Of a DNA stretch of 47,711 bases, positions 9,067-47,080 are shown one piece after another; position 1 is the first letter of the stretch; each line of letters starts with the position of its first letter. Both the position numbers and the translations under genes were made by a program. The notes under the pieces were generated by a model. That model searched no databases, was not told where the DNA came from, and saw nothing but the letters and a program-made list of their open reading frames with translations. The stretch is from a virus. The DNA lies in the IMG/VR virus record IMGVR_UViG_3300042898_002545, positions 1 through 47,711 of that record. The stretch is one strand, 5' to 3'.

Positions 9067-10374
9067 ATGAAGTATAATTTGATTTTAGAAAACTGGAAGA
9101 AATTTCTTGTTGAGGAAGAAACATATGATTCCACAGAAGAGCAAGGAGCTGAAACAGTCAATACACAGACACAATCGCCAGCAGAACAAAGACAAAATGA
9201 AATAGATATTGCTGTTGGTGCTTTAGAAAGTGATATAAAAAATGTTATTGCTAGTGTAAAACTAAAAGGTATGACCGCTAACGATATAAAGCCAAAATTA
9301 ATACAACTTATAAATAACCTCCAAGAAGCTAAAAAGAAGAAATCTGGTGATCGTTGTACTAGAATAGCCAAACGTAAATATGATGTTTGGCCTTCTGCTT
9401 ATGCTTCTGGTGCTGTTGTTAAATGCCGTCAAGGAAAGATTTGGAAAGGCATAAGCGAAAGTGCAACAGATGAAGAAATTGATACTTATTTGTTATTAGA
9501 AAAATCAGATCCAAAAGTTGGAACTGGTAAAAAACCAAAAGATTCAGATCGTAGATTGTATACAGATGAAAATCCAAAAGATACAGTAAGTGTAAAGTTT
9601 TCTTCTGTACAAGACATAAAGGATACATTATCAAAAGAATCTTTTAAGTCTAAGTCACACGCTCGCCAATCACAAATAATAAATTTAATTCATCAAAGAG
9701 TTCGTGTAGCATATGATAGAGCCAAAGAACCAGAGGTTAAATCAAGACTTAAGAAAGCTCTTGATTACGCTGAACAAAGAAAAGAAGCATCTAAAGAGAA
9801 AACTAAAAATTTACAAGAAGAACAACAAGGTAATCAACTTAACGAAAGATGTTGGAAAGGCTATACACAAAAAGGTATGAAAACTATGTTTGGTAAACGA
9901 TACCCTAATTGTGTAAAAATAAAAAAAGAACAAATTGAATTAGAAGAAATTGATTTAATAGAAGAAAAATGGTCTGATAAATACAAAAGTTCTATAAATT
10001 GTAAAAATCCAAAAGGTTTCTCTCAGAGAGCACATTGTCAAGGTAGAAAAAAAAAGAATGAAGAAATAGACCTTGGTGAAATAGAAATAATTGAAGAAGA
10101 ATTAGATGAAGCAAAAAAGAAAAAACCATACAAACCAAACTTCTCTAAAGAAAAAGATCAAGGTCTTCACGGATGGTTTGCAAGAAATAAAGGTAAAGGT
10201 TGGATAAATTGTAGAACTGGTGGTCCTTGTGGTCGTGACTCTGCCGATAGTGGTGGTAAGTATCCAGCTTGCAGACCAACTAAAGCACAATGTAAATCTG
10301 CTGGTAAAGGCCCATTAAGAAAAAAGACTTCTTCTAAACCAATCTCTTGGACTAAAAAGAAAAAGAAGGACTAA
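9067..10374 (+). CDS. Virion polyprotein of basic Cys-containing modules (DUF5872-like)
   Basis: 435 aa. The N-terminal tag LILENWKKFLVEE (LVE at 14-16) resembles T4 capsid-targeting peptides. Four basic Cys-containing modules follow, separated by acidic linkers: GDRCTRIAKRKYDVWPSAYA (from about residue 93), CWKGYTQKG...PNC (about 262), KYKSSINCKNPKG...HC (about 305) and HGWFARN...CRPTKAQC to the end. Each is preceded by an (L/I)xE site: LQE 85-87, LNE 258-260, LIE 297-299 and LDE 346-348. Two of these sites continue with the same AKKKK. I infer prohead-protease processing into small basic peptides packed with DNA. The modules resemble DUF5872-type phage proteins. Confidence 0.6.
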   Translation: MKYNLILENWKKFLVEEETYDSTEEQGAETVNTQTQSPAEQRQNEIDIAVGALESDIKNVIASVKLKGMTANDIKPKLIQLINNLQEAKKKKSGDRCTRIAKRKYDVWPSAYASGAVVKCRQGKIWKGISESATDEEIDTYLLLEKSDPKVGTGKKPKDSDRRLYTDENPKDTVSVKFSSVQDIKDTLSKESFKSKSHARQSQIINLIHQRVRVAYDRAKEPEVKSRLKKALDYAEQRKEASKEKTKNLQEEQQGNQLNERCWKGYTQKGMKTMFGKRYPNCVKIKKEQIELEEIDLIEEKWSDKYKSSINCKNPKGFSQRAHCQGRKKKNEEIDLGEIEIIEEELDEAKKKKPYKPNFSKEKDQGLHGWFARNKGKGWINCRTGGPCGRDSADSGGKYPACRPTKAQCKSAGKGPLRKKTSSKPISWTKKKKKD

Positions 10375-10395: not shown

Positions 10396-10686
10396 ATGAA
10401 ATTAACCGAATCTTACATACGCAAACTTATTATGGAAGAGTTGTTAAACGAACAAGCCCAACAGGTTGTTGATAAACAAATTGCTACAGCTACTGCTGAA
10501 ACTAGTCCTTTTATAAGAAAGATGAATGAGAAGAAAGATAATGCCCAACAACAACTTTCTGTATTAGAACAATTTCTAAATAAAGTACAATTACATAAAA
10601 CATTTTATACAGAATTATCTAAAATGGCTCTTAATAAAACAAACGCACAAGCTCCAACGCAAGCTCCAGCAGGAATGCAAAAATAA
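10396..10686 (+). CDS. Small tagged virion-type protein
   Basis: 96 aa. Residues 1-19 are the same class of tag as at 6121 and 22818 (KLTESYIRKLIMEELLNE, with LNE at 17-19 before Gln). The remainder is helical and Gln/Ala-rich, ending in a flexible APTQAPAGMQK tail. Probably a small internal head protein or core peptide, inferred from the tag and from its place between two other tagged genes. AAGGA precedes the ATG. Confidence 0.5.
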   Translation: MKLTESYIRKLIMEELLNEQAQQVVDKQIATATAETSPFIRKMNEKKDNAQQQLSVLEQFLNKVQLHKTFYTELSKMALNKTNAQAPTQAPAGMQK

Positions 10687-10687
10687 A

Positions 10688-11350
10688 ATGAGCAAGAAGT
10701 TTTCATCATTTCAAGATCAACAACTTCTTGTGGAAAGTTGGAGAGCTTTTATATCTGCTAAAGGTTTAGTAAAGTTACTACAACCACAATCAGCATCACC
10801 AGTTGTATCTGAGAATCTTAAAGAATCTTTTTATTATGATGGAAAAGAATTTGATTCCATGCAAGCTATAGAAGATTATAAAGCTGAACAAGAAGAAAAT
10901 GTTGTTGATCCCAAAAAAGGTCTTTTTGTAAATTACCCAGACATAGCAGACGAGAGAAAGATAAAATCAGCAAAACAAATATTGAAAAAGGCAATAGAAC
11001 AACTTGATAGTCTAAATCTTGCTGAAGCGGCAACTTTAGATGATGGAACACTAGTATGTGAAGCCTGCTTATTAGAGGTAATTGAATCATCTGAAAATAT
11101 GATACTTGAAGCTAAGTATCAAGGCAGAACTGTTCAACTCAATAAGCCAATGAAAGGTGATGTAAAAAAATCAAAAGTTTACGTTAAAGATCCAAAAACT
11201 GGCAACGTAAAGAAAGTTAATTTTGGCGATAAAAATATGAAGATTAAAAAGTCTAATCCAAAAAGACGTAAATCATTCAGAGCACGCCATAATTGTGAAA
11301 ATCCAGGCCCCAAAACTAAAGCACGTTATTGGTCTTGCAAAGCTTGGTAG
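10688..11350 (+). CDS. Tagged virion protein with conserved basic C-terminal module
   Basis: 220 aa. The N-terminus carries a tag-like helix (LLVESWRAFIS, LVE at 14-16). The last ~79 residues form a basic module (GDVKKSKVYVKDPKTG, IKKSNPKRRKSFRARHNC, ARYWSCKAW) of a kind recurrent at the ends of structural proteins in large phages. It is preceded by I139-L140-E141 then AKYQG, a consensus T4-type prohead-protease site. Cleavage would free a basic, Cys-containing ~79-residue peptide. The middle is acidic and contains CEAC. Its function in the head (DNA compaction or core) is inferred. Confidence 0.55.
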   Translation: MSKKFSSFQDQQLLVESWRAFISAKGLVKLLQPQSASPVVSENLKESFYYDGKEFDSMQAIEDYKAEQEENVVDPKKGLFVNYPDIADERKIKSAKQILKKAIEQLDSLNLAEAATLDDGTLVCEACLLEVIESSENMILEAKYQGRTVQLNKPMKGDVKKSKVYVKDPKTGNVKKVNFGDKNMKIKKSNPKRRKSFRARHNCENPGPKTKARYWSCKAW

Positions 11351-26079: not shown

Positions 26080-26272
26080 ACCACAAGAAGGAGACATTGT
26101 AAGATATCACGTCGATAATATGAATTTCGACGGTATGTACATTACAAGTTTTTTTGATGATAGGGGTTTTGATACTAAAGAGTCTGTAGAATTTCACGAA
26201 GTTTTTGTGTTTGAAACAGGCCAACTAGAAAGATTCTTTGCTTTTGAATTACGTGGAGTTTTGGAACTATGA
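26033..26272 (+). CDS. Unknown small protein
   Basis: 79 aa, beta-rich (GDIVRYHVDNMNFDGMYITSFF). GTG at 26033 is preferred because GGAG lies 7 bases upstream. An internal ATG at 26051 has an RBS too close (2 bases), but is not excluded. Overlaps dut upstream and purA downstream. Function unknown. Confidence 0.45.
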   Translation: MKQIEEMVVSVRRDAEPQEGDIVRYHVDNMNFDGMYITSFFDDRGFDTKESVEFHEVFVFETGQLERFFAFELRGVLEL

Positions 26273-27288
26273 GAATAGAAAATGTTGACGTTGTTTATGG
26301 TGCCTCTTGGGGTGATGAAGGTAAAGGAAAAATTACACATTTCTTAGCATCAAAACCAAACTATTATAATTTTGTTTGCAGATGGAACGGTGGAAGCAAT
26401 GCGGGTCATACTATTTTTCACAATGGTAAGAAATTTGCTACTCACATTGTTCCATCTGGAATTTTTTATGGTATTAAGTCTGTTATTGGACCTAATTGTG
26501 TAGTAAACATTGATTCCTTTTACAAAGAAGTAGCTGAACTTGCTGCTGGTGGTCTTAACACCTCGCTTATTAAAATTCATCCATTAGCGCACATTGTTAC
26601 TAATGAACATATTGAAGAAGATAAAGCTAAGCTAGGGCATCTTGGAACAACTTCGCAAGGTATAGCACCAGCATATCGAGACAAAGCCGCCAGAAAGGGT
26701 TTACTTGCCAAAGATAGTACAATAGATAAATCTTACATTTTAAATGAACAATTATTTGGAAACATTCTTTGTGAAGGCGCACAGGGATACCACCTTGATA
26801 TTAATTATGGCAATTATCCATTTATTACATCAAGTGAATGTTTACCATATGGTGCTTGTTCGTTAGGGTTCCCACCACAAAAAATTAAGAATGTTTTTGC
26901 TTGTGCTAAAATATATGATACTCGCTCTGGTACAGACCCTCTGTTCCCAGAAACTTTACTTGAAGATCCTGTTCTTTTAAGTATTGCTGACGCTGGAAAA
27001 GAATACGGTACAACAACAGGACGTAGAAGAAAAGTAAATTGGCTTAACCTAGATAAGCTAATTGAAGCACTTAAAATTGGTGGTGCTACACATTTGGTAA
27101 TAAACAAATGTGACATTATCAAACAAATTAGCATTTATAAAACTTTCCATGAAGGTAAACTAATTGAGTTCAAAACATTTGATGAATTACAAGACTTTAT
27201 TGATTTTGTTTGTTATAATAGTTCTGATTTGCTAGAGTATATTTACTATAGTAGCAATCCAGAAACTATCGAAGGGTTTAATGCATGA
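26269..27288 (+). CDS. Adenylosuccinate synthetase, short form (PurA/PurZ superfamily)
   Basis: 339 aa; joins IMP and aspartate with GTP to give adenylosuccinate. Motifs: WGDEGKGK with catalytic D16, NAGH with H47, GTTSQGIAPAYRDKAARKG near 124-142, CEGAQGYHLDINYG near 166, TRSGTDPLFPE near 222 and TTTGRRRKVNWLN near 249. It lacks about 90 residues compared with bacterial PurA (about 430 aa), like archaeal PurA and the phage PurZ enzymes that make 2-aminoadenine. The catalytic Asp is kept, whereas described PurZ enzymes replace it, so IMP use is the safer reading. It sits two kilobases from an IMPDH-type gene. Confidence 0.88.
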   Translation: MRIENVDVVYGASWGDEGKGKITHFLASKPNYYNFVCRWNGGSNAGHTIFHNGKKFATHIVPSGIFYGIKSVIGPNCVVNIDSFYKEVAELAAGGLNTSLIKIHPLAHIVTNEHIEEDKAKLGHLGTTSQGIAPAYRDKAARKGLLAKDSTIDKSYILNEQLFGNILCEGAQGYHLDINYGNYPFITSSECLPYGACSLGFPPQKIKNVFACAKIYDTRSGTDPLFPETLLEDPVLLSIADAGKEYGTTTGRRRKVNWLNLDKLIEALKIGGATHLVINKCDIIKQISIYKTFHEGKLIEFKTFDELQDFIDFVCYNSSDLLEYIYYSSNPETIEGFNA

Positions 27289-30771: not shown

Positions 30772-31473
30772 ATGCTATTCAACAAATCTCGTAAGAAAGT
30801 AAATGATGAACACGATCACGATGATGAGACAGAAGAAGTGGCAGAAGCTGGTTCTACTAAAACACCTGTGCCAATGACGCTATTTATGCCTCCCGCTGGT
30901 GGAGACAAACCAGATTCAAGAACTATTGGTCTATTTGGTGAAGTTGAAGAGGCTAAGATTTCTCAGATTGTTGGCGTAATGCTTGAACTTGCTGAGAATT
31001 GCGAAGTAGATTATCCAGTAAACCCAGACGACCCAAACTCCGAGATTGAAACAGAAAATGAACCTATTGAGTTTATTCTAAATACTCCAGGTGGTTCTGC
31101 TGATGATATGTTTGCTCTTTACGATATTATGCGTGTTATTAAAAACAAATGTGACATTGTAACGTTTGGTGTTGGTAAGGTAATGTCTGCTGGTGTTCTT
31201 CTACTTGCGGCAGGAACTAAAGGACAGCGTAGAATTGGAAAGAATTGTCGAGTAATGATTCATTCAGTAATTGGTGGTAATGCTGGCCCTCTCCATAACC
31301 TTGAAAATGAAATGGATGAGATTAGATACGTTCAAAATGCTTATCTAAAAGCACTTGCAGCAGAAACCAATATGTCATTCCGCCAACTCAAGAAAATGAT
31401 TGATAAGAAAGTAAATGTTTATCTTTCAGCAGAAGAAGCAGTAAAGCTTGGAATTGCTGACATTATTGTTTAA
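30772..31473 (+). CDS. clpP: ClpP-like serine protease
   Basis: 233 aa. Ser139 (GKVMSAG) and His164 (RVMIHS) match the ClpP catalytic pair, and NTPGGSADD is the oxyanion-strand region. The third residue is odd: where E. coli has Asp171 before FLSAPEA, this protein has Asn215 (NVYLSAEEA). It also has an acidic His-rich N-terminal extension and an insertion near 85-102 (PDDPNSEIETENE). It could degrade host proteins with a host Clp ATPase, or act in head maturation, since it lies near a scaffold-like gene. (L/I)xE sites in virion proteins point to a T4 gp21-type protease instead, not seen in this window. Confidence 0.85.
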   Translation: MLFNKSRKKVNDEHDHDDETEEVAEAGSTKTPVPMTLFMPPAGGDKPDSRTIGLFGEVEEAKISQIVGVMLELAENCEVDYPVNPDDPNSEIETENEPIEFILNTPGGSADDMFALYDIMRVIKNKCDIVTFGVGKVMSAGVLLLAAGTKGQRRIGKNCRVMIHSVIGGNAGPLHNLENEMDEIRYVQNAYLKALAAETNMSFRQLKKMIDKKVNVYLSAEEAVKLGIADIIV

Positions 31474-31477
31474 TAAG

Positions 31478-31485
31478 ACTATTTA
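31478..31485 (+). promoter_or_regulatory. ACTATTTA motif close to a start codon
   Basis: ACTATTTA ends 5 bases before the ATG at 31491. If it acts as a -10, the transcript would be nearly leaderless; no good RBS is present between them. Confidence 0.3.
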
Positions 31486-31490
31486 AGATT

Positions 31491-32921
31491 ATGACAAACA
31501 ATGAATTAGACAACTTAGTAGAAAGCTTTTTAACTCCAAAGAAATCAAAAACTATGGAGCTTAAAGAGCTTTTTGCTCTATTTGATGAATTAAAGCTTAC
31601 TGAAGTGCAATTACAACCTATCTATCCTTCTGGTAAAGAAAAAGGATACGAAGCAGAAGAATCAAGTGTTCAATTCTTTTATCAAATATATAATGATACT
31701 TTAGCTACTAAAGTATCATCTGGTACAGACCCAATAGATAAAATTACAAATTTTGTAAATTTTGTAAATGAATTAAAGAAAGAAGAAGCATCAGAACAGC
31801 CAACAAACTTATCTTATGCTTTAGCAACTATATTATTTACTACTTCATTACACAAGATGATAGAAGATTTCCTACCAGATACTCCTTCTTCTGCTGGTTT
31901 TTTCTTTGAAAAGTTCATTAACTTATTGTTTAAAACTGGAACTGTATCAACTGAGAATTCTATTAATCCATTTCCTATTCAAGATATAGAAGTAGAAATG
32001 GAAGGTAAACCTTATTACTTATCTTTAAAACTTGTTAAAAGTAAAAGTATTACAGGTTCAATCGGTAATATGTTGAAGTTTTTTGAAAACGCATACACCA
32101 AGCTATATTCAGCAGGAAATCATAAATTTTCTTTAGTTAATTTTGATGAACAAGGAAACCCAACAACATTAAATTCTCCTTTAGATAAGAAAATTATTTA
32201 TATTATTGCAAATAAAGCTGTTGAAACAAGAGGTGAAGTTTCAGCAAATGTTATTATTTTTAATATGTTTGAATTTAATTTTGAACAATTTCTTAATATG
32301 TTAGGAAAGGATAGAGCAGAAAAATATAACAATTATTTAAAAAATCCTGCATTTGTTAAAAATAAACTGAAACAATTAAAAGACGAAATATCCTTAATAG
32401 AAGCAGAAATTGATAGAGAAGAAACAACAGAATCATTTTTCGATACAGGAAGTGAAGAATCTGATGTTGAAGAATATGAAAAAAGCTATAATCAAGCTGC
32501 TATTTCTTCAACAAGAGATAAAATAGAGGTTCTTTATAATAAACTGGCTGCTTTAAACGCAGAATATGTTAAAATATCAGAAGAAGATGTAGGTTCTGGT
32601 TCTACAGCAGCCTCTTTGCAATTTAGTTTTAATGTAGAAACATTAAAAGCTAATTCTAAATCAAAAGAAGGTTTAACATTATCAATGCGCCCAAATGAGC
32701 GTGATACTATTTTGAATAAAAATAAAAAGATCTTTGATGAAAAAATTGAATTAATTTTAAAAGAAGCTGGTTTGATTAACTACAAAGTTAATAATTATTT
32801 CTTATCTTTGAACAACGAAGAGATGGACGAGCAACAAATTGCAAAGTTAGGTAATGAAGCTTATTCTTCTGCAAAAGAATTAGAAACTAATCTTGGTTCT
32901 AAAATTGGTTTAAAGACTTGA
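31491..32921 (+). CDS. Possible virion nuclease-like protein
   Basis: 476 aa. The N-terminus contains LVESFL (LVE at 9-11), a tag-like site. A region with GFFFEKFINLLF (E140), then QDIEVEM (D165) and LSLKLV (K180), has the spacing of a PD-(D/E)xK nuclease core, although the residue two before Lys is Ser rather than Glu/Asp. Residues about 290-390 are charged helices likely to be coiled coil. The weak RBS and the ACTATTTA just upstream are noted separately. Nuclease activity is tentative; a structural role is possible. Confidence 0.4.
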   Translation: MTNNELDNLVESFLTPKKSKTMELKELFALFDELKLTEVQLQPIYPSGKEKGYEAEESSVQFFYQIYNDTLATKVSSGTDPIDKITNFVNFVNELKKEEASEQPTNLSYALATILFTTSLHKMIEDFLPDTPSSAGFFFEKFINLLFKTGTVSTENSINPFPIQDIEVEMEGKPYYLSLKLVKSKSITGSIGNMLKFFENAYTKLYSAGNHKFSLVNFDEQGNPTTLNSPLDKKIIYIIANKAVETRGEVSANVIIFNMFEFNFEQFLNMLGKDRAEKYNNYLKNPAFVKNKLKQLKDEISLIEAEIDREETTESFFDTGSEESDVEEYEKSYNQAAISSTRDKIEVLYNKLAALNAEYVKISEEDVGSGSTAASLQFSFNVETLKANSKSKEGLTLSMRPNERDTILNKNKKIFDEKIELILKEAGLINYKVNNYFLSLNNEEMDEQQIAKLGNEAYSSAKELETNLGSKIGLKT

Positions 32922-32945
32922 CAATAACCAATAAAAGATTATAAT
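32918..32945 (+). promoter_or_regulatory. Consensus sigma70 promoter for groEL
   Basis: TTGACA (32918-32923, overlapping the previous stop), 16-base spacer, TATAAT (32940-32945): both hexamers are perfect. 21 bases before the groEL ATG. The strongest promoter in the window. Confidence 0.8.
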
Positions 32946-32966
32946 ACCTCTACATACGGAGTTTTG

Positions 32967-34535
32967 ATGAGTAAACAGTATTGTGATGGACGCTCCTTGT
33001 CCGAAGCATTATTGAAGGGTGCTAATGTATTGGCAGATAATGTATCTTCCACATTAGGCCCAAGAGGAAGAAATGTAATTCTTCAAGAAAAAGGAAAAAC
33101 ACCAATCATTACAAAAGATGGTGTAACTGTAGCAAATTTTGTTGAGTTGTCTGACCCATTTGAGAATTTGGGAGCACAAGTAATAAAGCAAGCATCACAA
33201 CAAACTGCTGCCCTTGCTGGTGACGGAACTACTACATCAGTCGTTCTTTCGCGTGCCATTCTTCGTGAAGCACAACGCTATTTGACCTCTGGCGTTTCTC
33301 CTATTGAACTTAAGAGAGGCATCGATAAAGCTGTTGAAGCAATCGTTGAGAGAATTGGAGAAATTGCAAAACCAATTTCCTCAGAAGAAGATATTGAACA
33401 CGTTGCATCTATCTCTGCAAACAACGATAGAACAATTGGTAAGTTAATTGCTACTGCGGTAGATAAGGTAGGTAAAGATGGTTCGATCACTATTGAAGAA
33501 GCACGGTCTGTCGATACTTCTCTTGACATTGTTGAAGGTTTCCGTTTCGATTCGGGATACCTCGCTGGTGCGTTCATCAATGACGAAAGACGGGGTGTAG
33601 TAAAATACGAAGACCCTTACATTCTTGTAACAGACCGTAAATTTGATTCTGTTCAAGATATGCTTCCTGTTCTTGAACTTATTGCAAGAGAGGGTAAACC
33701 ATTTGTAATTGTTGCAGATGAAATTGAAGGTCAAGCCCTTGCTGCTCTTATTATGAATGCGATGAGAGGAACAATGAAGGTTGCTGCTGTAAAGGCTCCA
33801 CGTTATGGTGAAGAACGCCGCAACATCATGAAAGACCTTGCAATCTCTGTTGGGGCTACATTCATTGCTACAGAGAATGGCACCAAAATGTCTGATGTAA
33901 AACTCAAAGATTTTGGTCGTGCAAAGAAGATTGAAATTGCTAAAGGTTTGACTACTATTGTAGGTGGTTATGGTTCTATGGAAGATGTTGATAGACAAAT
34001 CGACATTATCAAAGCAGAACTACAACAAACCGAATCAATTTATGAATGCGAGAGACTTCAAGAAAGAATCACTCGTCTTGCTTCTGGTATTGCAATTATT
34101 CGCGTAGGTGCAGCAACAGAAGTAGAAATGATCGAGAAGAAACACCGTATTGAAGATGCTCTAGAAGCCGTCCGTAGTGCCCAACAAGAAGGCATAGTTC
34201 CAGGTGGTGGTGTAGCTCTCATTAGAGCCACACAACGTCTTGAAGTGGCTACAGACAACGAGGAGCAAGCATTAGGAGTCAAGATAGTGTTGAAGGCAGC
34301 AGAAGAGCCTGTTAGACAGATGGCAATGAATGCTGGTGAATCCCCAGACCTTATAGTAAGTTTGATTAAGTCAGAAGTATTTGAGGCTGGATACGATTTC
34401 TTGAAGCGTGATGTAATTATGATGGTCAAGAACGGTATTATTGATCCTGCAAAAGTTACAAGATGTGCTATACAAAATGCGGCATCAGCGGCAGGAACTT
34501 TAATTACAACTAATTATTCTATTGTTCAACAATAA
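32967..34535 (+). CDS. groEL: Chaperonin GroEL (Hsp60, group I)
   Basis: 522 aa, close to E. coli GroEL (548 aa). ATPase motifs are intact: TLGPRGRNV near 28-37, KDGVTVA near 50, AGDGTTT near 84-90 and the catalytic Asp of RIEDAL near 390. Apical and intermediate domains align throughout. The flexible Gly-Gly-Met tail of bacterial GroEL is missing (the protein ends SIVQQ). ATG 32967 follows GGAG; an in-frame TTG at 32964 is less likely. Probably folds the phage's own large virion proteins with the GroES-like protein at 15455. CGT/CGC codons and a consensus promoter imply high expression. Confidence 0.95.
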   Translation: MSKQYCDGRSLSEALLKGANVLADNVSSTLGPRGRNVILQEKGKTPIITKDGVTVANFVELSDPFENLGAQVIKQASQQTAALAGDGTTTSVVLSRAILREAQRYLTSGVSPIELKRGIDKAVEAIVERIGEIAKPISSEEDIEHVASISANNDRTIGKLIATAVDKVGKDGSITIEEARSVDTSLDIVEGFRFDSGYLAGAFINDERRGVVKYEDPYILVTDRKFDSVQDMLPVLELIAREGKPFVIVADEIEGQALAALIMNAMRGTMKVAAVKAPRYGEERRNIMKDLAISVGATFIATENGTKMSDVKLKDFGRAKKIEIAKGLTTIVGGYGSMEDVDRQIDIIKAELQQTESIYECERLQERITRLASGIAIIRVGAATEVEMIEKKHRIEDALEAVRSAQQEGIVPGGGVALIRATQRLEVATDNEEQALGVKIVLKAAEEPVRQMAMNAGESPDLIVSLIKSEVFEAGYDFLKRDVIMMVKNGIIDPAKVTRCAIQNAASAAGTLITTNYSIVQQ

Positions 34536-37634: not shown

Positions 37635-40580
37635 ATGAAAAACTACGATAAATTATGGAAGAATTGGCAACAAAAAACAATCCTTAGCGAATTAAACAAA
37701 GATAATAGAAAAAAACTATTAAAGTACGTTGAAAAAACAATGACTAATCTTGGTTCTGATTCCTTAGATATTTTAACAAGAACTCCATTTAATTATGCAT
37801 TTGGTGATAAACTTAGAATAGTAATTCCATTAGAAGAAAACGTAGCATTAAAATTAACAGAACAAGTTGCATTATTGAAACTTACAGCAAATCAATTTTA
37901 TGAGAAAAAACATAAAGAAGGTTCAATTAATGATTATTTAGTATCGTTTAATGTTGCCGAAGAAACTGTACAACAATCAATAGAAGGTGGAAGAGAAACC
38001 AAAGAAGTTAAAATAAGAACTCCACAAATTGTTGTACGTTACCTAAATAAAATGAATCAATTAAAAACAGAAACTTTTCCATTAGGTAGGGCTTTTAATA
38101 AATTTAAGATGGATGAAGCAGCAAGATATTGGTCACAAGTACAAAGTGGATTGGTTACAAACGAGCAGTTAAGCAGACAACTGGAACACTTTGTAAGTAT
38201 GACTCCAGTAACAACACCAGAACACATTGCAGCATCAATAAGGTTTATGGGTGGTAGCACAGAGTCTTATTCTATTGTCGTTACAAGAAGCCCAATTGAT
38301 GTTGCTCGTATGTCGGACTTTTCAAACATTACCTCCTGCCATAGTCAAAAAGGCTCTTACTTCATTTGCGCTCTTGAAGAAGCCAAAAGAGGTGGAGCCG
38401 TTGCTTATGTAGTAAAAAATGAAGACGTTAAAAAATTAGAAGAAGAAGGAAGATTACAAGATTCAGAAATCTTCTTTGATGAAGAACATTTAAAAGAAAT
38501 AAGCAAGAATCAAAGAAGTAATGATCCAAATGCTCCTATGAGTTTTGACGATGATGAAGAAGAACAAACACAAACATCAATAGACAAAATTGTTCCAGTA
38601 TCGAGAATAAGAATCAGAAGAGTTATTGATTTAGAAAAACAAATGGAGTACATGGTTCCAGAAGAATCAGAGTATGGTACACAAATTTATAAGTTTCGTA
38701 AAGTTTTAGAACAATGGTGTGCTGACAAACAATCTTTTATGTTTGCTGGTGCAGATGGTAAACCTAATTTAGATTTTTCAGAAAAACTTTTATTTCTTAC
38801 TGGTGGCAGTTACCAAGATACACAAATTGAAGCACTATTCCGTTCATTATTAACAAATGTTTCTAAAGTTTTGGGAATCGACGAATCAGAAGTAAAAACT
38901 GCAAATATTGATTGGGAAGGTGTTGAAGATCCACTTGAAGATGCAACCGATTGTGAAAGAAATACAAATATTTATAGTGCAAGAGCTTATCACGTTAGAC
39001 TTAATAGTAATTTCTCAATGATAGAAACATTACCACAATGTAATGAAAACGATATTTTTACTGGTTATAGGGTTAAATTAAGATCTAATTTTGAACTTAG
39101 ATCACTTAATGTTGTGGAAGAGAAGAAAAGCGAATTAAGAATTAATGAAGATCAATTGCAAAAAATTAATAATGTTTTGTCTACATACACACAATTATTT
39201 GGAGAACTAAACATTAGAATTAATGGTACAACAGGATTGTCGCTTATTTTTACCAAACTATTAACAACAATAGATGATTTCAATGTTTACGACCAAAACT
39301 GCATTCTACAAACTCACCAACAAATGGCAATATTGTTGAGAAAAGTTCTAACTGAAATGGGTATTAGCAGACCAAGCCCATTATTGTCACAGAAAATTTA
39401 TAATTTACTTGCTGAAACAGAAGAAAACCAAAAGTTTAGTGTTGAGTTTGATCCAGAGACTGATTACCGTTTTATTTACAATACCGATACACAACCAGAA
39501 GCTTTAAACATGAGGTATAGAAATTGGTTTATGGGTCCACTAACAAGTATGAAGTCCTTACGTCCTACCTCTCAACTTTCTATGAACTTAGGGGCAAAGG
39601 CAATAGAAAAAGAAGGCGATCCTCTTGTTAAATTTCCAGAAGAAGCTTCCAAATTAATTAATTTAAACCCACAATCATTTAAAACAATTATGAACACAGC
39701 TTTGGGTTTGACTTATAGAGACTTAAATTCTATACTTCGTAAACGTGGTGGAACTAGCACAATGTTTGACGAGTTTACGTTAGGACAAGCAAATGTACCA
39801 TTAGAAGTTTATTTGGACCGTAGTATTACAATTGGAAACGGTGGACATTTAAGTTTTGATGCGTTTCTTACCGACAACAATAAAGGTATTAATTTAATAA
39901 TTCAAGGTTCTTGTTTATCTTCAAATACTGAAACTGGAACACTACAATTTGCTACTTTAGTTAATTGGATTAGCAATAATACTGAGCTTATTGAAGATAC
40001 GTTTTATAAACATCTTCTTGAACAAATAAACCAAGATAAAAAAGAAATTGCAAATGTTCTTCAAACTAATCCAAGACGAGAAAGTGAAACAGAAATGGAA
40101 CAACACCAGCAAGATGCAAAATTTGGTGGTAGTAAAGAAGAAATAGTTAGAGAAATACTTAGCAGAGTAGTATCTAACTATGGAGATCGTCTTATTGAAA
40201 TACCAGAATATGTTGTTGAAAACAAAGAACCTGCAATTAAATTTTATCCATCAGCATTTGGTATTTTAGGTCAATCAATAATTTATTTCCGTTATGGTGT
40301 ATTTACTGAAGAAAATACAGTAGCAGTTTCAGCAGTAACAAATTTAAATAAAGTTTTCTTTACCAAAGTAATAAAAGATGTTAATTTTCCTCTAACAGCA
40401 GAACAAACAGCAGCATTTTTTGATGGGTTCGTTGAGGAAATAAGAAAGAAAGTTCTCGGACCTTATTATTACATTCTTGAAGATGAAAAGCCACAAGTAA
40501 AAGAAAGTAAAGTAATAAACAAGAAACTGCTTCGCGAGAAACTAATTAGATGGTACAGAAGGAACAAAAATGAGCAATAA
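37635..40580 (+). CDS. Giant virion-type paralogue 1 (SCHS domain)
   Basis: 981 aa. Tag-like N-terminus (LWKNWQQKTILSE, LSE at 17-19) and basic amphipathic C-terminus (KLLREKLIRWYRRN). Residues 51-66 (PFNYAFGDKLRIV) are shared with its two neighbours. The common core at about 212-330 has TRSPIDVARMSD, then S-C235-H236-S, YFICALEEA, GGAVAYVV, EIFFDEE and PVSRIRIRRV. The conserved Cys-His suggests an enzyme site, but no family is recognised. The remaining ~600 residues diverge. A packaged internal protein is inferred from the tags. Overlaps the next gene by 11 bases. Confidence 0.6.
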   Translation: MKNYDKLWKNWQQKTILSELNKDNRKKLLKYVEKTMTNLGSDSLDILTRTPFNYAFGDKLRIVIPLEENVALKLTEQVALLKLTANQFYEKKHKEGSINDYLVSFNVAEETVQQSIEGGRETKEVKIRTPQIVVRYLNKMNQLKTETFPLGRAFNKFKMDEAARYWSQVQSGLVTNEQLSRQLEHFVSMTPVTTPEHIAASIRFMGGSTESYSIVVTRSPIDVARMSDFSNITSCHSQKGSYFICALEEAKRGGAVAYVVKNEDVKKLEEEGRLQDSEIFFDEEHLKEISKNQRSNDPNAPMSFDDDEEEQTQTSIDKIVPVSRIRIRRVIDLEKQMEYMVPEESEYGTQIYKFRKVLEQWCADKQSFMFAGADGKPNLDFSEKLLFLTGGSYQDTQIEALFRSLLTNVSKVLGIDESEVKTANIDWEGVEDPLEDATDCERNTNIYSARAYHVRLNSNFSMIETLPQCNENDIFTGYRVKLRSNFELRSLNVVEEKKSELRINEDQLQKINNVLSTYTQLFGELNIRINGTTGLSLIFTKLLTTIDDFNVYDQNCILQTHQQMAILLRKVLTEMGISRPSPLLSQKIYNLLAETEENQKFSVEFDPETDYRFIYNTDTQPEALNMRYRNWFMGPLTSMKSLRPTSQLSMNLGAKAIEKEGDPLVKFPEEASKLINLNPQSFKTIMNTALGLTYRDLNSILRKRGGTSTMFDEFTLGQANVPLEVYLDRSITIGNGGHLSFDAFLTDNNKGINLIIQGSCLSSNTETGTLQFATLVNWISNNTELIEDTFYKHLLEQINQDKKEIANVLQTNPRRESETEMEQHQQDAKFGGSKEEIVREILSRVVSNYGDRLIEIPEYVVENKEPAIKFYPSAFGILGQSIIYFRYGVFTEENTVAVSAVTNLNKVFFTKVIKDVNFPLTAEQTAAFFDGFVEEIRKKVLGPYYYILEDEKPQVKESKVINKKLLREKLIRWYRRNKNEQ

Positions 40581-43257
40581 AAAAGACTTCTTTAAGTTAT
40601 GGAACAAGTACTTAAAAAATCAAAAACTAAATGAATCTTCACAAGAAGCAATTGATGCAATTTCTAGAGCATCAAGCGCAGCATTTAGAGATCCAAGTCT
40701 TTTACCATTTAATGCAATCTTTGGTGATAAATTAAGAATAGTTGAACCATTACAACAAAAAAACGTTGACAAAGTTGCAATGATTCTAGCAACAATTCTA
40801 GCTAATTTTGCACCTTCTCGCGAAAACAATTACAGCACAGCAACAATTGATGTAAAACCTGTAATGAAAAAGATGAAACAAAAACCTCTTGGTTGGGTTC
40901 AAGGCGACCCAATACCAGAGGTTGAAAAACAAATAATTGAATTATCTGTAAGCATCCCAAGACTTTCCGTAAATCCAGAAACAAAAGAAGAACAAGTAAG
41001 AACAACGACTACTACCGTTGTTGGTGGGTTAAAAGAAGTTGTTAAAGAAATGAAAAAAGAAATCAAAAAACACACAGACGAATACGTTCAAAAATACGGT
41101 GAACAACCACCTACAGAAGAACCTGCTGCAATGTCTGGTCAAAGAGATTTTGATGCTTCTCGTATTGTAGAAAGAAAGAAAAAATTAGAAATAATTCCAA
41201 GTATAGCAAAATGGTGGCAAGACAATCAAGGAAGATTTATTTTAGATCCAGAGTTATTGACCCTTGCCAAAGAGAAAGCAGAAGCAGAAAGATACGCTTT
41301 TGACATTAAAACATTTAACGAAACATCAGATGAAAATTTAGGTAAAGTTGAAAGTAAGTATTCAATTATTTACTCTCGCGTTCCTGTAGATATTTTAAGA
41401 ATGTCAGACTTTTCTGATGAAGGTCTTGAGTCTTGTCATTCCGAAGGAAACGAATACTTTGTTTGTGCTCTTGCCGAAGCACAAAATGAAGGTGCAATAG
41501 CCTATGCTGTAAATACAGAAGATCTAGAAAAGATCGACCTAGACGATCCAGAAATTTTCTACGATAGAGAAAGAAGAATCAAAGGTATTGCACCAGTTTC
41601 CAGAGTACGCTTAAGAAATATTACAGATAAAGGTACAAGTATTGCTATTGCTGTACCTTCAAGCAGAATTTATGGTGAGAGATTAGATAATTTTCTTAAT
41701 ACTGTAAAGAAGTTTGCTGTTGATACACAAGCAAAAGCATTAGTAACTATAGATGAAGAAGGTAATAAAAGATTAAACATTTCTACTAAAATAGAAGATT
41801 TTATTCATAGAGGTGGCTCATATGAAGATTCACCTGGAGTTGGTACAGGATTTGTTAATTTTCTTCAACAATTGACAAAAGAACAAAAAGTAGAACCATC
41901 ACAAGAGCAGCAAGAACTTATTAAAAATATTGGGTATAACATTAAGAATGTAACTAGAGAAAAAGAATTTACACGTTGGTCTGACGGTGACGATGAAGAT
42001 GATTTAGAAGAGATTCGAAGAGAAGAAGCCGAGAATACGTTCAGTAGAGGATTGCGTGCTGTAGAAAGAGGCACTACTTTGGATGTGAGCGGTTGTGATT
42101 TTGAGTGGGAATGGGGCGATGGTGCATCTATTCTTGCTAATTTTAAATTAGATTACCAAATTAACATAAACCAATTTACACCAGAATATGGTAAAGATGC
42201 AGATGATGATAATGTTTCTGATGACATTCTTGATAGACTAGTACACAAAGATGCTGGAGTATTTGTCTACCCAGACGTTTCTTTAGGAAATGTTCAATCT
42301 TATGTAGATAATAATGTACGTCACATAACATTAATCTATGAAAGCACTTACTATGATGCTGACGAATTTAATGGTGCTTGTCGCGATCTAGTTAGATGGT
42401 TTGAAAATAATACAGCAGAAGGTATTGAAAAAAGATTCTATGAAATACTAGAAGAATACGAAATAATAAGAGTAGGACAAGAGGAATCACCAAGAGTTAA
42501 GTTCCGTAACTTTACTCATAATGTTGGAAATAATTCAGATTATTTTAACACGGAAATGAAAGGCACATTAGCTAAATTTAAGTTTTTTAATAAACAAAGT
42601 CCTCGCGATCACTTTATTGTTGCTAGACTAGATCCTATGCAAGCTGGTGGTTTGTTTAGTTTTGGTGGAAGAAATGTTGTTAATGGTAATGGTAATTTAC
42701 TTTTTAATAGTCAAATAATTTCTCTTTTTGGTCAAAGCGTTGGTTTTGCTTTACAAAGATTACTTGTAAACTTGCCAACAGTTTCAACAGATAGAGTTAA
42801 GCAAATGAGATTGCCATTTGCTGAAAAACATAGCGATAATACTTTAGATGATCGTTCGTTTATGTGTACTATTACATTTGATGTTATTGGGGAGTATTTA
42901 AGAGATAGTGGTTCTGGTTTAGCCGACCACCAATCAACAAAAAAACAATACGATGTTCTCCTTAAAGAGATAGAATTTTCTTTTAATTACATTAATGAAC
43001 AAGACAAACTAAACCAATTTCAAGAAATGATTGAAGAAATTGATAATGATCCTCAGTCTTTACTAGATAAAGTTTATGAAGCTATTAGACTTAACTTTAA
43101 CGCATTTTATAAAGAACAAACTGCACAACAAGTAAAAGATGAAATAGAAAAAATAGAAGCAGAGCGTCAACAACAACAATCTTTGACAGAATCAAGAAAA
43201 AAGATTATTAGAGAAAACCTATTAAGATTATTAAGAAGAAATAAAGGGAAGAAATAA
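40570..43257 (+). CDS. Giant virion-type paralogue 2 (SCHS domain)
   Basis: 895 aa. N-terminal tag FFKLWNKYLKNQKLNE (LNE at 20-22) and C-terminal LTESRKKIIRENLLRLLRR, which is the same motif class as the N-terminal tags at 10396 and 22818. The shared block FNAIFGDKLRIV lies at 47-58. The core has SRVPVDILRMSD, S-C289-H290-S, YFVCALAEA, GAIAYAV, PEIFYD and PVSRVRLRN. An inserted Glu/Lys-rich charged region lies near 130-190. Function unknown; an internal virion protein is inferred. Start and stop overlap its neighbours, so the three paralogues are translationally coupled. Confidence 0.6.
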   Translation: MSNKKDFFKLWNKYLKNQKLNESSQEAIDAISRASSAAFRDPSLLPFNAIFGDKLRIVEPLQQKNVDKVAMILATILANFAPSRENNYSTATIDVKPVMKKMKQKPLGWVQGDPIPEVEKQIIELSVSIPRLSVNPETKEEQVRTTTTTVVGGLKEVVKEMKKEIKKHTDEYVQKYGEQPPTEEPAAMSGQRDFDASRIVERKKKLEIIPSIAKWWQDNQGRFILDPELLTLAKEKAEAERYAFDIKTFNETSDENLGKVESKYSIIYSRVPVDILRMSDFSDEGLESCHSEGNEYFVCALAEAQNEGAIAYAVNTEDLEKIDLDDPEIFYDRERRIKGIAPVSRVRLRNITDKGTSIAIAVPSSRIYGERLDNFLNTVKKFAVDTQAKALVTIDEEGNKRLNISTKIEDFIHRGGSYEDSPGVGTGFVNFLQQLTKEQKVEPSQEQQELIKNIGYNIKNVTREKEFTRWSDGDDEDDLEEIRREEAENTFSRGLRAVERGTTLDVSGCDFEWEWGDGASILANFKLDYQININQFTPEYGKDADDDNVSDDILDRLVHKDAGVFVYPDVSLGNVQSYVDNNVRHITLIYESTYYDADEFNGACRDLVRWFENNTAEGIEKRFYEILEEYEIIRVGQEESPRVKFRNFTHNVGNNSDYFNTEMKGTLAKFKFFNKQSPRDHFIVARLDPMQAGGLFSFGGRNVVNGNGNLLFNSQIISLFGQSVGFALQRLLVNLPTVSTDRVKQMRLPFAEKHSDNTLDDRSFMCTITFDVIGEYLRDSGSGLADHQSTKKQYDVLLKEIEFSFNYINEQDKLNQFQEMIEEIDNDPQSLLDKVYEAIRLNFNAFYKEQTAQQVKDEIEKIEAERQQQQSLTESRKKIIRENLLRLLRRNKGKK

Positions 43258-46223
43258 TGTCTAAGAACAGCAATCATTATAACTGGCAGAAGTGGATTTC
43301 TCAAACAAATCATAAAAAGAATCAAAAAGTTCTTTTAGAAATGAAAGAAAACTGGGTAGATAGAATCTATGACGCTATTGCTAAGTTTCAATCTGGTAAA
43401 GCAGAGAACTTTAGATCTTATTTTGGTTCTGCTGGTCGTGTTGTTGTTCCATTTGACGAATCTAAAATGAACAAACTTGGTTATGCAATGATTGTTGCAA
43501 GCCAAGCTACAAGAGATAGAGTTGACGATGAAGCAAAAGGTTTTATTGGAAGAGTTATTGAACAATACCTAAAAATGACACATGAAGAGTTTTATAAACT
43601 ACCTTGGGATGTAAAGGTAAAAGCATTAAAAGAGAAAGTACCAGAATCCTATCTTGCAACAGACTCTAGAAATTTGTACATTAGAGAAGCAAGTTTAAAA
43701 GTAAATCCAACAATCAACATAAGAAAGAAAATAGTAAATCAAAAGTTCACTCCTCTTGGTGGTGGTCCTGCACAAACAAAACAAATAGAAATTTATGAAC
43801 CAATTATTGAGTACGTTTATTCCGAGCCTTGGAGTCCTAAAGTTCCAGAAGAAGCAAAAAAAGGCGCAGAAGTTAATGAAAGAAAAATTGAATTAACATT
43901 AGCACAAGCACTACAAAAAGCAAATCAAACAGAAATTTATCAATGGTGGCAAAAGAATCAAGCTAAATTTACTGAAGATTTAGGTGCTATTGAAGGTGCA
44001 AGAGAAGTTTACGTTCATCAAACAACTCACAACTACCCATCACTTGCATCAGCAATCGAAGGTTTCAACAGAACAAACGAAAACACACCAAGCACTAAAT
44101 CAATTATTATAAGTCGTGTTCCAATTGATGTTCTAAGAATGTCTGACCACGCTGGTATGCATTCTTGCCACTCACAACCAGAAGAATACACTGGTGGTTA
44201 TTTTTATTGCACTCTCGCAGAAGCAAGAAACCAAGGAGCAATTGCTTATTTGGTAAAAAATAAAGACTTAGAAAATATTGACTTAAATGCACCAGAGATT
44301 TTTTATGATCCACAAAGAGGCGTTAAAGGAATCACACCTCTCAATAGAGTAAGAATCAGAAGGCTTGTTGATGAAGATACTGGTATAGATTTTATGGCTA
44401 ATGAAACAAGAATTTATGGTTATGAAAAAGCAGTTGGATTTGTAGAAACGGTTAAAAATTGGATTACTCAACAAACAAAGAAAGTTTTGTATGACCAATC
44501 TTCCTCTGACCCAAATGAAAGATACTTTGTTCCAGACATTAGTACTTTACAAATGCTTGGAGGTCACTATTCTGACTCTGGTATGAATAAATTAACCTCA
44601 GACTTTATTGAAATTTTAGAGAAAGCTTTAGAAGAAACTATAGAAACTCCAGAACAAAAAGAATGGGTAGAAAAATCTATTGCTTCATTGAAGAATTATA
44701 CACAAAGTAGTTATGGCAACCGCATTATGTGGGCTGGTGAGGAAGATGAAGAAGAAGTTAGAAACGAATGTGACGAAGCCAACCAAGAGTGCCAAAACAT
44801 AAAAGAAACCTTTAATCAATACTCAGACATAGCTGTTTTGGAATTAGATGTAAATTGTGCTGGGCCAGACATAGACACGATTGATAGTGAAATTAAAATA
44901 GAGTTTGATTTTACTCAAGATGATGATAAGTTTATGTTTACACCAGAAAGTTTACAACAACTTACAAGTACTACTGGTTATGCTACTGATAATGTTAATA
45001 AATTAACATTAGATTTAAGAGAAATAGTTAGAGAAACATTACTTGAACTATGTTCTGATAGAGACATTTTTAATTCATCAAGATTTGTTATTAGGCATCA
45101 TGTTGGTGGTTACTCTGGAAGATCAGATAAATTAATTGTTTTTATTACTATAGAAAATACATTTGCAAGCACTTTTGAAGCGCAATCAACAACTTACGGT
45201 ATTAGAAGATCACTTGAAAATACTGGTTATGAGGAATTGAAATCACTATTGGTTGCTAAATTTAAAAAAGCAGGAATTGCAAAAGTTGCTCCATCAGAAA
45301 CAGAATCAATACAAAACATGATACAAGAGTTTGCTGAGACTATTGTTGAAAACGGTAATCATTTTCAATGGAGTGACCGTTCGGAAGAGGGAGTAAATGA
45401 CATATTTATTTATGTTGAAAATCCAAAGAGAATAATATCACTTGACAATTATCCTGTTGTTGCTAAAGTACCAATTACTGTGCCAGAAATAACTGTGGAA
45501 AAAGGTTCAGCAGAAGCATCAAGATACTTTAATAAATTAAATGATTTGATAAGACAAATTAATCTTTCTGGAATAATAGATAAAATTTTTGCTGCTGTTG
45601 GAAGTCCAGAATCCACAGTAGGCAATTATACTCTTCCATTTAGTGGTAATTTTTATAACCCACTAGGCAACATGACTCAGACAAGAACAATCTCAAACAT
45701 TATGCAATCTGAAAAAACAGAAGATTTGCCACCTTACGAAGATATTGTACAAGTAAAAATTGCTCCAATAATACCAGAACTAAACCAATTTAGACGATAT
45801 GATGCTATTAGACAAACTAATCTTGATGTTGCTATGACAATAGAATTCACTATCGACCATAGACAAAGAACAGAGCAAGAAGTAATCAACACATTAAATT
45901 ACATGGAGAAACTTGGCTCACCAGAAAATTATGATAAAATTGTAAAAGTAATTTCTGAACACATTAGAGAGTACATTAAATATATCGATAGTACCACTCT
46001 TTTTCATTTCCACAGTTTACAGGCGGATATTAATAAATCTGCTAAGGAACCAATTCCAGACCAACCAACTCGTCCCAAGTATGGTTCCACGCCAATCGAG
46101 CAATCACCTTTGTTTAGTGGTGAACCACAGAACCCATCAGCATACCTGCCAGAGAATAAACAAAAAAAGAAACTAGTTATTAACGAAAGATTTAAACGTT
46201 TATTGAGGAATACAAAGAAATGA
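43257..46223 (+). CDS. Giant virion-type paralogue 3 (SCHS domain)
   Basis: 988 aa. N-terminus NWQKWISQTNHKKNQKVLLE (LLE at 26-28) and C-terminus VINERFKRLLRNTKK resemble the tags of paralogues 1 and 2. FRSYFGSAGRVVVPF at 52-66 matches the shared N-terminal block. The core has SRVPIDVLRMSD, S-C304-H305-S, YFYCTLAEA, GAIAYLV, PEIFYD and PLNRVRIRR. A Pro-rich spacer (PDQPTRPKYGSTPIEQSP) precedes the C-terminal helix. Function unknown. Stop overlaps the HAD gene (ATGA). Confidence 0.6.
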   Translation: MSKNSNHYNWQKWISQTNHKKNQKVLLEMKENWVDRIYDAIAKFQSGKAENFRSYFGSAGRVVVPFDESKMNKLGYAMIVASQATRDRVDDEAKGFIGRVIEQYLKMTHEEFYKLPWDVKVKALKEKVPESYLATDSRNLYIREASLKVNPTINIRKKIVNQKFTPLGGGPAQTKQIEIYEPIIEYVYSEPWSPKVPEEAKKGAEVNERKIELTLAQALQKANQTEIYQWWQKNQAKFTEDLGAIEGAREVYVHQTTHNYPSLASAIEGFNRTNENTPSTKSIIISRVPIDVLRMSDHAGMHSCHSQPEEYTGGYFYCTLAEARNQGAIAYLVKNKDLENIDLNAPEIFYDPQRGVKGITPLNRVRIRRLVDEDTGIDFMANETRIYGYEKAVGFVETVKNWITQQTKKVLYDQSSSDPNERYFVPDISTLQMLGGHYSDSGMNKLTSDFIEILEKALEETIETPEQKEWVEKSIASLKNYTQSSYGNRIMWAGEEDEEEVRNECDEANQECQNIKETFNQYSDIAVLELDVNCAGPDIDTIDSEIKIEFDFTQDDDKFMFTPESLQQLTSTTGYATDNVNKLTLDLREIVRETLLELCSDRDIFNSSRFVIRHHVGGYSGRSDKLIVFITIENTFASTFEAQSTTYGIRRSLENTGYEELKSLLVAKFKKAGIAKVAPSETESIQNMIQEFAETIVENGNHFQWSDRSEEGVNDIFIYVENPKRIISLDNYPVVAKVPITVPEITVEKGSAEASRYFNKLNDLIRQINLSGIIDKIFAAVGSPESTVGNYTLPFSGNFYNPLGNMTQTRTISNIMQSEKTEDLPPYEDIVQVKIAPIIPELNQFRRYDAIRQTNLDVAMTIEFTIDHRQRTEQEVINTLNYMEKLGSPENYDKIVKVISEHIREYIKYIDSTTLFHFHSLQADINKSAKEPIPDQPTRPKYGSTPIEQSPLFSGEPQNPSAYLPENKQKKKLVINERFKRLLRNTKK

Positions 46224-47080
46224 TAATGGAAGGCATACTAAAAAATTGGAGAGGCTTTGTTGGTGAAGGTATTACACCAGAAGGTAAAGCTGACCTTAGA
46301 TATTATGCTTTCGATTGGGATGATAATATTGTATTTATGCCAACACAAATTATGTTACTTGATACAGCAGGTAATGAAGTTGGTATGTCAACACACGCTT
46401 TTGCAACTCATAGACATTTGATTGGGAAACAAGAGTTTGAGTATGAAGGCCATAAAATTGCAAACTTTGCTACAAATCCATTTAGAAACTTTAGAGTAGA
46501 AGGTGACGACCAATTCTTGAGCGATATTTCTAAAGCAAAGTTAGGACCATCTTTTAATGATTTTAAAGAATGTGTTCAAACTGCTTCTTTATTTGCTATT
46601 ATTACTGCAAGAGGCCACACCCCAGACGTATTAAAAGAAGCATGTGCTGACTATATCAAAACTGGATTTGGCGGAATTAATAAAGATGAATGCATAAAAA
46701 ATATAAAATTGTACTTACCTTTAACAACGCCAGGAATTTCTGTTGAAGAAATGACAGACGACCAATTAATCAATCAATATTTGATTCATTGCCAATTTAG
46801 TCCTGTAAGCCATTCAAGTATTGCTGGTACTAATGCTTCCGCTGCTGCAAGCCCAGAAGCACTGAAAGTAGCAGAATTAAATAACTTTATTGAAAAAGCA
46901 CATTTGGAAGCAAGAAGAATCAGAAAACATGCTGTTAAAGGTGCTAGAATAAGAATAGGTTTCTCTGACGATGATAAAAAGAATATTGAACTTATGATTG
47001 CACATTTCAACCCAAGAGATACTAGAGGAAGATTCAAGAAAGGAAGAAGGGTAAGAATTAAATACACAGGCACACACTGA
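46220..47080 (+). CDS. HAD-superfamily hydrolase with capsid-tag-like N-terminus
   Basis: 286 aa. HAD motif I is FDWDDN (D32, D34), motif II is IITARG near residue 131 and motif IV is GFSDDDKKN near 250, so a phosphatase or related activity is likely. The first 16 residues (MEGILKNWRGFVGE) match the W-x-x-F-(I/V/L)-x-E form of T4 capsid-targeting peptides, suggesting a packaged enzyme. The C-terminus is a basic tail (RDTRGRFKKGRRVRIK) suited to DNA contact. Last large gene of the paralogue operon. Substrate unknown. Confidence 0.7.
   Translation: MIMEGILKNWRGFVGEGITPEGKADLRYYAFDWDDNIVFMPTQIMLLDTAGNEVGMSTHAFATHRHLIGKQEFEYEGHKIANFATNPFRNFRVEGDDQFLSDISKAKLGPSFNDFKECVQTASLFAIITARGHTPDVLKEACADYIKTGFGGINKDECIKNIKLYLPLTTPGISVEEMTDDQLINQYLIHCQFSPVSHSSIAGTNASAAASPEALKVAELNNFIEKAHLEARRIRKHAVKGARIRIGFSDDDKKNIELMIAHFNPRDTRGRFKKGRRVRIKYTGTH

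Follow-up and report, generated by a model that had tools for sequence, protein, structure and literature searches.

Phage internal proteins, which are injected to disarm or reprogram the host, are unrecognized outside a few models. An open reading frame at positions 9067 to 10374 (+ strand) of a 47.7-kb fragment of a T4-superfamily phage (the window; 47,711 nt) raises the question of whether several such proteins may be made as a single polypeptide and cut apart in the head. The ORF, whose orthologues are L082-L113, encodes 435 amino acids (49.7 kDa, pI 9.5). It had been predicted to specify a virion polyprotein, in which small basic modules containing Cys each follow an LxE site.

The ORF opens with a 16-residue leader, MKYNLILENWKKFLVE (9067..9114; this and all following features of the ORF are on the + strand), with a putative cut after the last residue. 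The leader is capsid-targeting-like and its register is that of the T4 IPII propeptide, MKTYQEFIAE; the leader sequence MKYNLILENWKKFLVEE is a candidate capsid-targeting sequence (CTS). A variable, acidic helical spacer (aa 17-87, 71 residues, pI 4.4; 9115..9327) follows and ends in the site LQE 85-87. Module M1 (aa 88-128; 9328..9450), from AKKKKSGDRC to WPSAYASGAVVKCRQGKIWK, has two Cys, matches PHROG 727 and exists elsewhere in stand-alone or shuffled copies. The border site LLE 143-145 (9493..9501), followed by KSDPK, introduces DOM (aa 146-251; 9502..9819), a helical module without Cys containing KSDPKVGTGKKP and RRLYTDENPKD, identified from stand-alone copies and predicted structure. LNE 258-260 (9838..9846) precedes CWK (aa 261-285; 9847..9921; RCWKGYTQKGMKTMFGKRYPNCVKI), and LIE 297-299 (9955..9963), with LEE 292-294 shortly before it, precedes WSD (aa 300-330; 9964..10056; EKWSDKYKSSINCKNPKGFSQRAHCQGRKKK); both modules have two Cys. 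An acidic linker (10072..10110) with LGE 336, IIE 341, IEE 342 and the border site LDE 346-348 then leads to GLH (aa 349-435; 10111..10371), in which AKKKKPYKPNF, GLHGWF, GWINC, PCGR and YPACRPTKAQC succeed one another and four Cys are invariant.

The positions given in the original prediction for LQE, LNE, LIE and LDE were correct, as were the AKKKK restarts at 88 and 349, directly after LQE and LDE, and the acidic nature of the linkers, of which the 17-87 spacer and the segment before GLH are examples. Its list of sites lacked the LLE before DOM, however, and Cys residues are present in four of the five modules (two each in M1, CWK and WSD, four in GLH) rather than in all. Most units are indeed basic; an exception is WSD, which together with its acidic tail has a pI of 5.4. 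As computed on the ORF, the leader and the acidic spacer would be removed first, and the predicted pieces would measure 4.7-13.3 kDa. The ORF contains 14 [LI]xE motifs compared to 4.7 +/- 1.9 in shuffles of its own sequence. A Pfam search with the ORF gave nothing above cut-off and a PDB sequence search no relevant match. The AlphaFold2 model of the whole ORF has a mean pLDDT of 53, with leader residues 2-16 forming a helix and only the DOM helices confident (pLDDT ~90 over 181-250); a separate model of the GLH module, at pLDDT 56, was uninformative. Foldseek comparison of the predicted structure with the PDB returned no match at E <= 0.001.

To follow the modules in other phages, IMG/VR was scanned with the ORF as query. 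Among the matches listed, both the combination of modules and their order vary; single modules form small ORFs of 50-180 aa, and others are embedded in proteins of more than 1000 aa. About 30 close orthologues all share the leader and differ in their module sets and inserts; when orthologues are near-identical, the differences are whole cassettes between LxE sites. The window and its near-identical counterpart L113 differ cleanly by a DOM+CWK cassette, between LLLE and IIEE. Inserts between LxE sites in orthologues include ART-PolyVal domains (found in orthologues L102 and L105 and in L108) and a P-loop kinase-like AAA_33 domain, and other module-bearing proteins contain nucleotidyltransferase or LysM plus lysozyme. 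Stand-alone module ORFs carry a leader ending in LxE, as in MNLTVLIEKVLSE/AKVKRDRC, MIKLTSIVHEILQE/DRCKRIAD and MYTFKQFVLE/AEYQGR (predicted cuts are marked by a slash). In an isolate, Flavobacterium phage immuto, which has gp21, the string is in three parts, ILSE/M1..LKE/..LLQE/GLH. A further recurrent module, FRA, ends a neighbouring ORF of the window (10688..11350, + strand; PHROG 7595 match), where it occupies aa 142-220 and is preceded by ILE 139-141/AKYQGR. In homologue alignments, W, Y, C and P residues of the modules are strongly conserved. This conservation and the alternation of modules with enzyme domains would suit specific injected proteins no less, and probably better, than the DNA-condensing peptides suggested in the original prediction.

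The original prediction had named conservation of LxE at module borders as one of its tests. When checked in homologues, the motif proved to be conserved far above chance. Contexts were kept as independent if their upstream 25 aa differed by more than 40%. As many as 67% of 260 distinct upstream contexts have [LI]xE within 14 aa of the module, compared to 25% after shuffling (z=17). Within 12 aa, the motif lies upstream of M1 in 61%, CWK in 75%, WSD in 62%, DOM in 73% and FRA in 70% (shuffled, 19-23%); for GLH the figure is 79% within 25 aa (shuffled, 43%). E occupies P1 in 19/29 DOM, 29/42 CWK, 34/34 WSD and 18/19 FRA contexts; P3 is L or I in 19/29 (DOM) and 27/42 (CWK), and P1' is A in 18/19 (FRA). 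Internal borders, where the module starts past residue 70, have [LIVMF]xE in 91-100% of independent cases. Conversely, the modules themselves are nearly free of [LI]xE (none in five families; 4 in DOM vs 26 expected), whereas the 30 aa upstream of modules hold 469 vs 191 expected.

Could this pattern merely reflect the composition of the linkers or the periodicity of a helix? The control motifs [LI]xD and Ex[LI] hardly exceed background in module contexts, and when the spacing was varied in [LI]x{n}E, n=0-5, the 260 pooled contexts gave z values of 0.4, 17.3, 3.4, 1.0, -0.4 and 3.8. In the same pool, P1 of the border site accepts E alone and P3 is restricted to L, I or V; P2 and P4-P10 are mostly variable. 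Because strong enrichment is confined to the one-residue spacing and P1 and P3 are this specific, composition and helix periodicity were rejected as the source of the motif. Nor does the choice of search seeds explain it: families whose seeds lay inside the module, taken alone, still give z = 12.7. Altogether, these comparisons strongly suggest that the border motif is the signature of a protease.

The leader has a counterpart in T4. There, the ten-residue IPII leader is followed by the mature chain on record, and in the IPIII leader targeting depends on residues 4 and 7 and processing on residues 8 and 10, Asp at position 10 blocking the latter (PMC9026906). The window leader, ...NWKKFLVE/, places W, F, L and E at the spacing of these residues, its W..FLVE aligning with Y..FIAE/ of the T4 capsid-targeting peptide. 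In G009, a 184-kb relative that shares 51 of the 59 window ORFs in near-identical order, 8 of 236 genes begin with the CTS motif (1.0 +/- 0.9 expected). Four of the eight lie within 4.4 kb; among these, one weakly matches nucleotidyltransferases and two are kinase-like by eye. A second ORF of the window (46220..47080, + strand) has a CTS-like leader, MIMEGILKNWRGFVGE, with a putative cut after it.

Other features of leaders were noted in passing. A HAD-like FDWDDN motif, recognized by eye, follows the leader of the 46220-47080 ORF, and this ORF is conserved in G009 and G003. Next to the precursor, a small ORF (10396-10686) starts with MKLTESYIRKLIMEELLNE and a putative cut, representing a second leader type, LTExxLRxxI...xE; in G009 this type is found just upstream of gp21 (L182) and also inside a longer ORF (L178:12363-13583, residue 308).

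The gp21 and gp23 genes were not found on the 47.7-kb window fragment, and the protease was therefore taken from syntenic relatives. Of 33 module-bearing records of at least 100 kb, 27 encode a gp21-type protease (PF03420), G009 among them; it is also present in G004, a close relative of 73.7 kb. The gp23 propeptides of relatives end in LLRE/S, LNE/S and LINE/A, the cut being placed as in T4, by analogy. Where gp21 is present on the record, [LIVMF]xE lies within 25 aa upstream of 52/52 distinct module copies, compared to 2/15 copies in a gp21-less phage type (11 contigs, ~57-82 kb). The gp21-less stand-alone copies begin directly (MGFELEKKKGLHGWF..), which agrees with the lack of a cut site but, through the short upstream sequence, inflates the contrast. 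Both positives in the gp21-less set are probably due to an over-extended start. The gp21-less type (L114-L121, L133-L137) has leaderless stand-alone M1 and GLH genes.

The precursor ORF is not located in a portal-protease-scaffold-capsid cluster. It sits between an exonuclease and a DnaB-type helicase gene, on a fragment that also encodes a UvsX-like recombinase, an ssDNA-binding protein, ribonucleotide reductase and DNA polymerase; in G009, a linear contig, gp21 is ~144 kb from the module-string gene. Elsewhere in the window, a PurZ-type 2-aminoadenylosuccinate synthetase gene (26269-27288) suggests modified adenine in this phage. Three adjacent large ORFs (37635-46223; 981, 895 and 988 aa) share the segment R.P[IV]D..RMSDF..SCHS..YF.CAL.EA..GAIAY.V and have Trp-rich N-termini followed by LSE/LNE/LLE. 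They diverge fast (28-33% identity to G009) and gave no PHROG match and no Pfam match above cut-off.

Virion data are on record for a homologue. CsCl-purified virions of cyanophage S-SCSM1 yielded 45 proteins (PMC9602691). One of the products that carry the label 'virion protein' in the genome record is SSCSM1_29, a string of GLH-like, M1 and CWK modules with VSE, MTE and FNE at the borders; since the record holds at least 46 such labels for 45 reported proteins, the label is only nearly equivalent to mass-spectrometric detection. SSCSM1_29 itself has no CTS-type leader. The virion-detected NMN adenylyltransferase of this phage starts MKSFLQFLKE/A. The CTS motif does not, however, predict which S-SCSM1 proteins bear the virion label, as it is not enriched among them (1/40 vs 2/66). 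Two side observations concern the same phage. SSCSM1_30 (L434:3762-4082; 106 aa), which adjoins the module string and has no virion-protein label, starts MKTFKQFMSE/S, a near-copy of the T4 leader. Around the NMN adenylyltransferase, S-SCSM1_89 to 93 (L437:17358-22836) are consecutive virion-labelled proteins, mostly without known function, many with internal [LIVM]xE sites. Of the predicted virion polyprotein, then, the polyprotein part is supported by comparison, the border motif being conserved, position-specific and associated with gp21. The virion location of the window product is supported indirectly, by the T4-type leader and by the label of the S-SCSM1 homologue.

We infer, with a probability of roughly three in four, that the ORF encodes a capsid-targeted precursor which gp21 would cut into several small virion-internal proteins. 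The leader would bring the single polypeptide into the prohead core, where a T4 gp21-type prohead protease would cut after [LIV]xE, both behind the leader and within each acidic linker. Five units, M1, DOM, CWK, WSD and GLH, the majority basic and with Cys, would be freed and would stay in the head, probably to be injected with the DNA as the T4 internal proteins are. The virion would thus probably carry several small proteins from one precursor.

Retention of the pieces is the step on which the strongest alternative bears. The precursor may have a role in head assembly, being chopped by gp21 to clear the head, with most fragments expelled and no modules persisting as internal proteins of their own. 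In T4, gp21 breaks gp22, gp67 and gp68 down into small peptides (PMC9958956), and SPN3US propeptides have several cut sites (PMC10052503); such multi-site substrates of gp21-type proteases are mostly expelled after cutting, so the fragments of the precursor need not stay in the head. The acidic linkers and an excess of LxE over need would suit this role as well. Yet the modules are conserved and near LxE-free, their content varies freely among near-identical orthologues, and the gene lies outside the head cluster; moreover, stand-alone module genes keep one leader site, which a disposable core would not need. We consider this alternative unlikely. Even less probable is that gp21 removes the leader and leaves a long, multi-domain string of beads, the internal LxE motifs being linker residues. 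This would agree with T4, where documented processing of internal proteins comprises only removal of the N-terminal propeptide, plus the C-terminus of Alt (PMC9026906), and E, L and I are abundant in the linkers; but it explains neither the retention of the motif at internal borders nor its spacing and its specificity at P1 and P3.

Finally, the location among replication genes could indicate an early host-takeover protein that never enters the virion, with linkers cut by another protease. The window does encode a protease of Clp fold (30772-31473), for which the PHROGs annotation is head maturation protease; its gene adjoins a 476-aa ORF and GroEL in an arrangement that is syntenic in G009, protease and GroEL together spanning 30772-34535. 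To our knowledge, ClpP-type proteases do not recognize LxE. The Clp-like enzyme was judged unlikely to be the cutter, and no replacement for gp21, because G009 keeps both genes. The match of the leader to the T4 capsid-targeting peptide and the occurrence of the same motif at the expected propeptide end of gp23 also speak against a non-virion protein, which appears very improbable.

A broader proposal can be made, to which we give even odds: aquatic T4-superfamily phages may possess a general cargo-string system, in which cassettes between [LIV]xE borders become separate injected proteins served by one leader. As the head protease would cut at any such border, an in-frame cassette would become a separate injected protein, and, cassettes being gained and lost as units, virion cargo would evolve through in-frame shuffling. 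Besides small Cys modules, such cassettes would include ADP-ribosyltransferases, kinases, nucleotidyltransferases and lysozymes. This grammar (CTS-like leader, [LIV]xE-bounded cassettes, gp21) would allow virion cargo to be predicted from sequence alone, and might explain enzymes in virion preparations, such as the S-SCSM1 NMN adenylyltransferase. With it, a long-standing question, the non-DNA contents of aquatic T4-like heads, could be put to the test in cultured isolates, Flavobacterium phage immuto among them.

Full-text searches of open-licence papers did not find a leader combined with a border-site module string described. Its elements are known separately: the cleaved leader in T4, multi-site cleavage in core proteins and propeptides, and packaged multi-domain effectors in polyvalent proteins. 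Like the window ORF, T4 IPI, IPII, IPIII and Alt have an N-terminal leader of the form aromatic-x-x-F-[LI]-x-E/, and consist of small, mostly basic units whose content is hypervariable between related phages; the gp21-type protease that acts on them in T4 is encoded by relatives of the window phage. However, they have one protein per leader, whereas the window ORF has up to five modules behind one leader and repeats the predicted cut site at each border. T4 gp22, gp67 and gp68 share with it a single precursor, many predicted gp21 sites and acidic segments, but are scaffold or core parts that are mostly lost, unlike the window modules, which are conserved, mobile and also found as independent genes. 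Similarly, the inner head proteins of SPN3US and phiKZ are cleaved after x-E motifs, at several sites per protein; there the sites lie in disposable propeptides, here between recurring modules. Polyvalent proteins (Iyer et al. 2017, PMC5512222) are multi-domain phage proteins, as the module strings are, and ART-PolyVal occurs in the orthologues. They are thought to be packaged and injected, and fused metallopeptidase domains are held mainly responsible for their processing, the text of that paper making no mention of gp21 (PMC5512222). The window ORF differs in having no recognized effector domain (by Pfam, none of the ART, MPTase, ParB-like or PBECR domains of that class) and in presenting candidate border sites for the head protease instead of a fused metallopeptidase.
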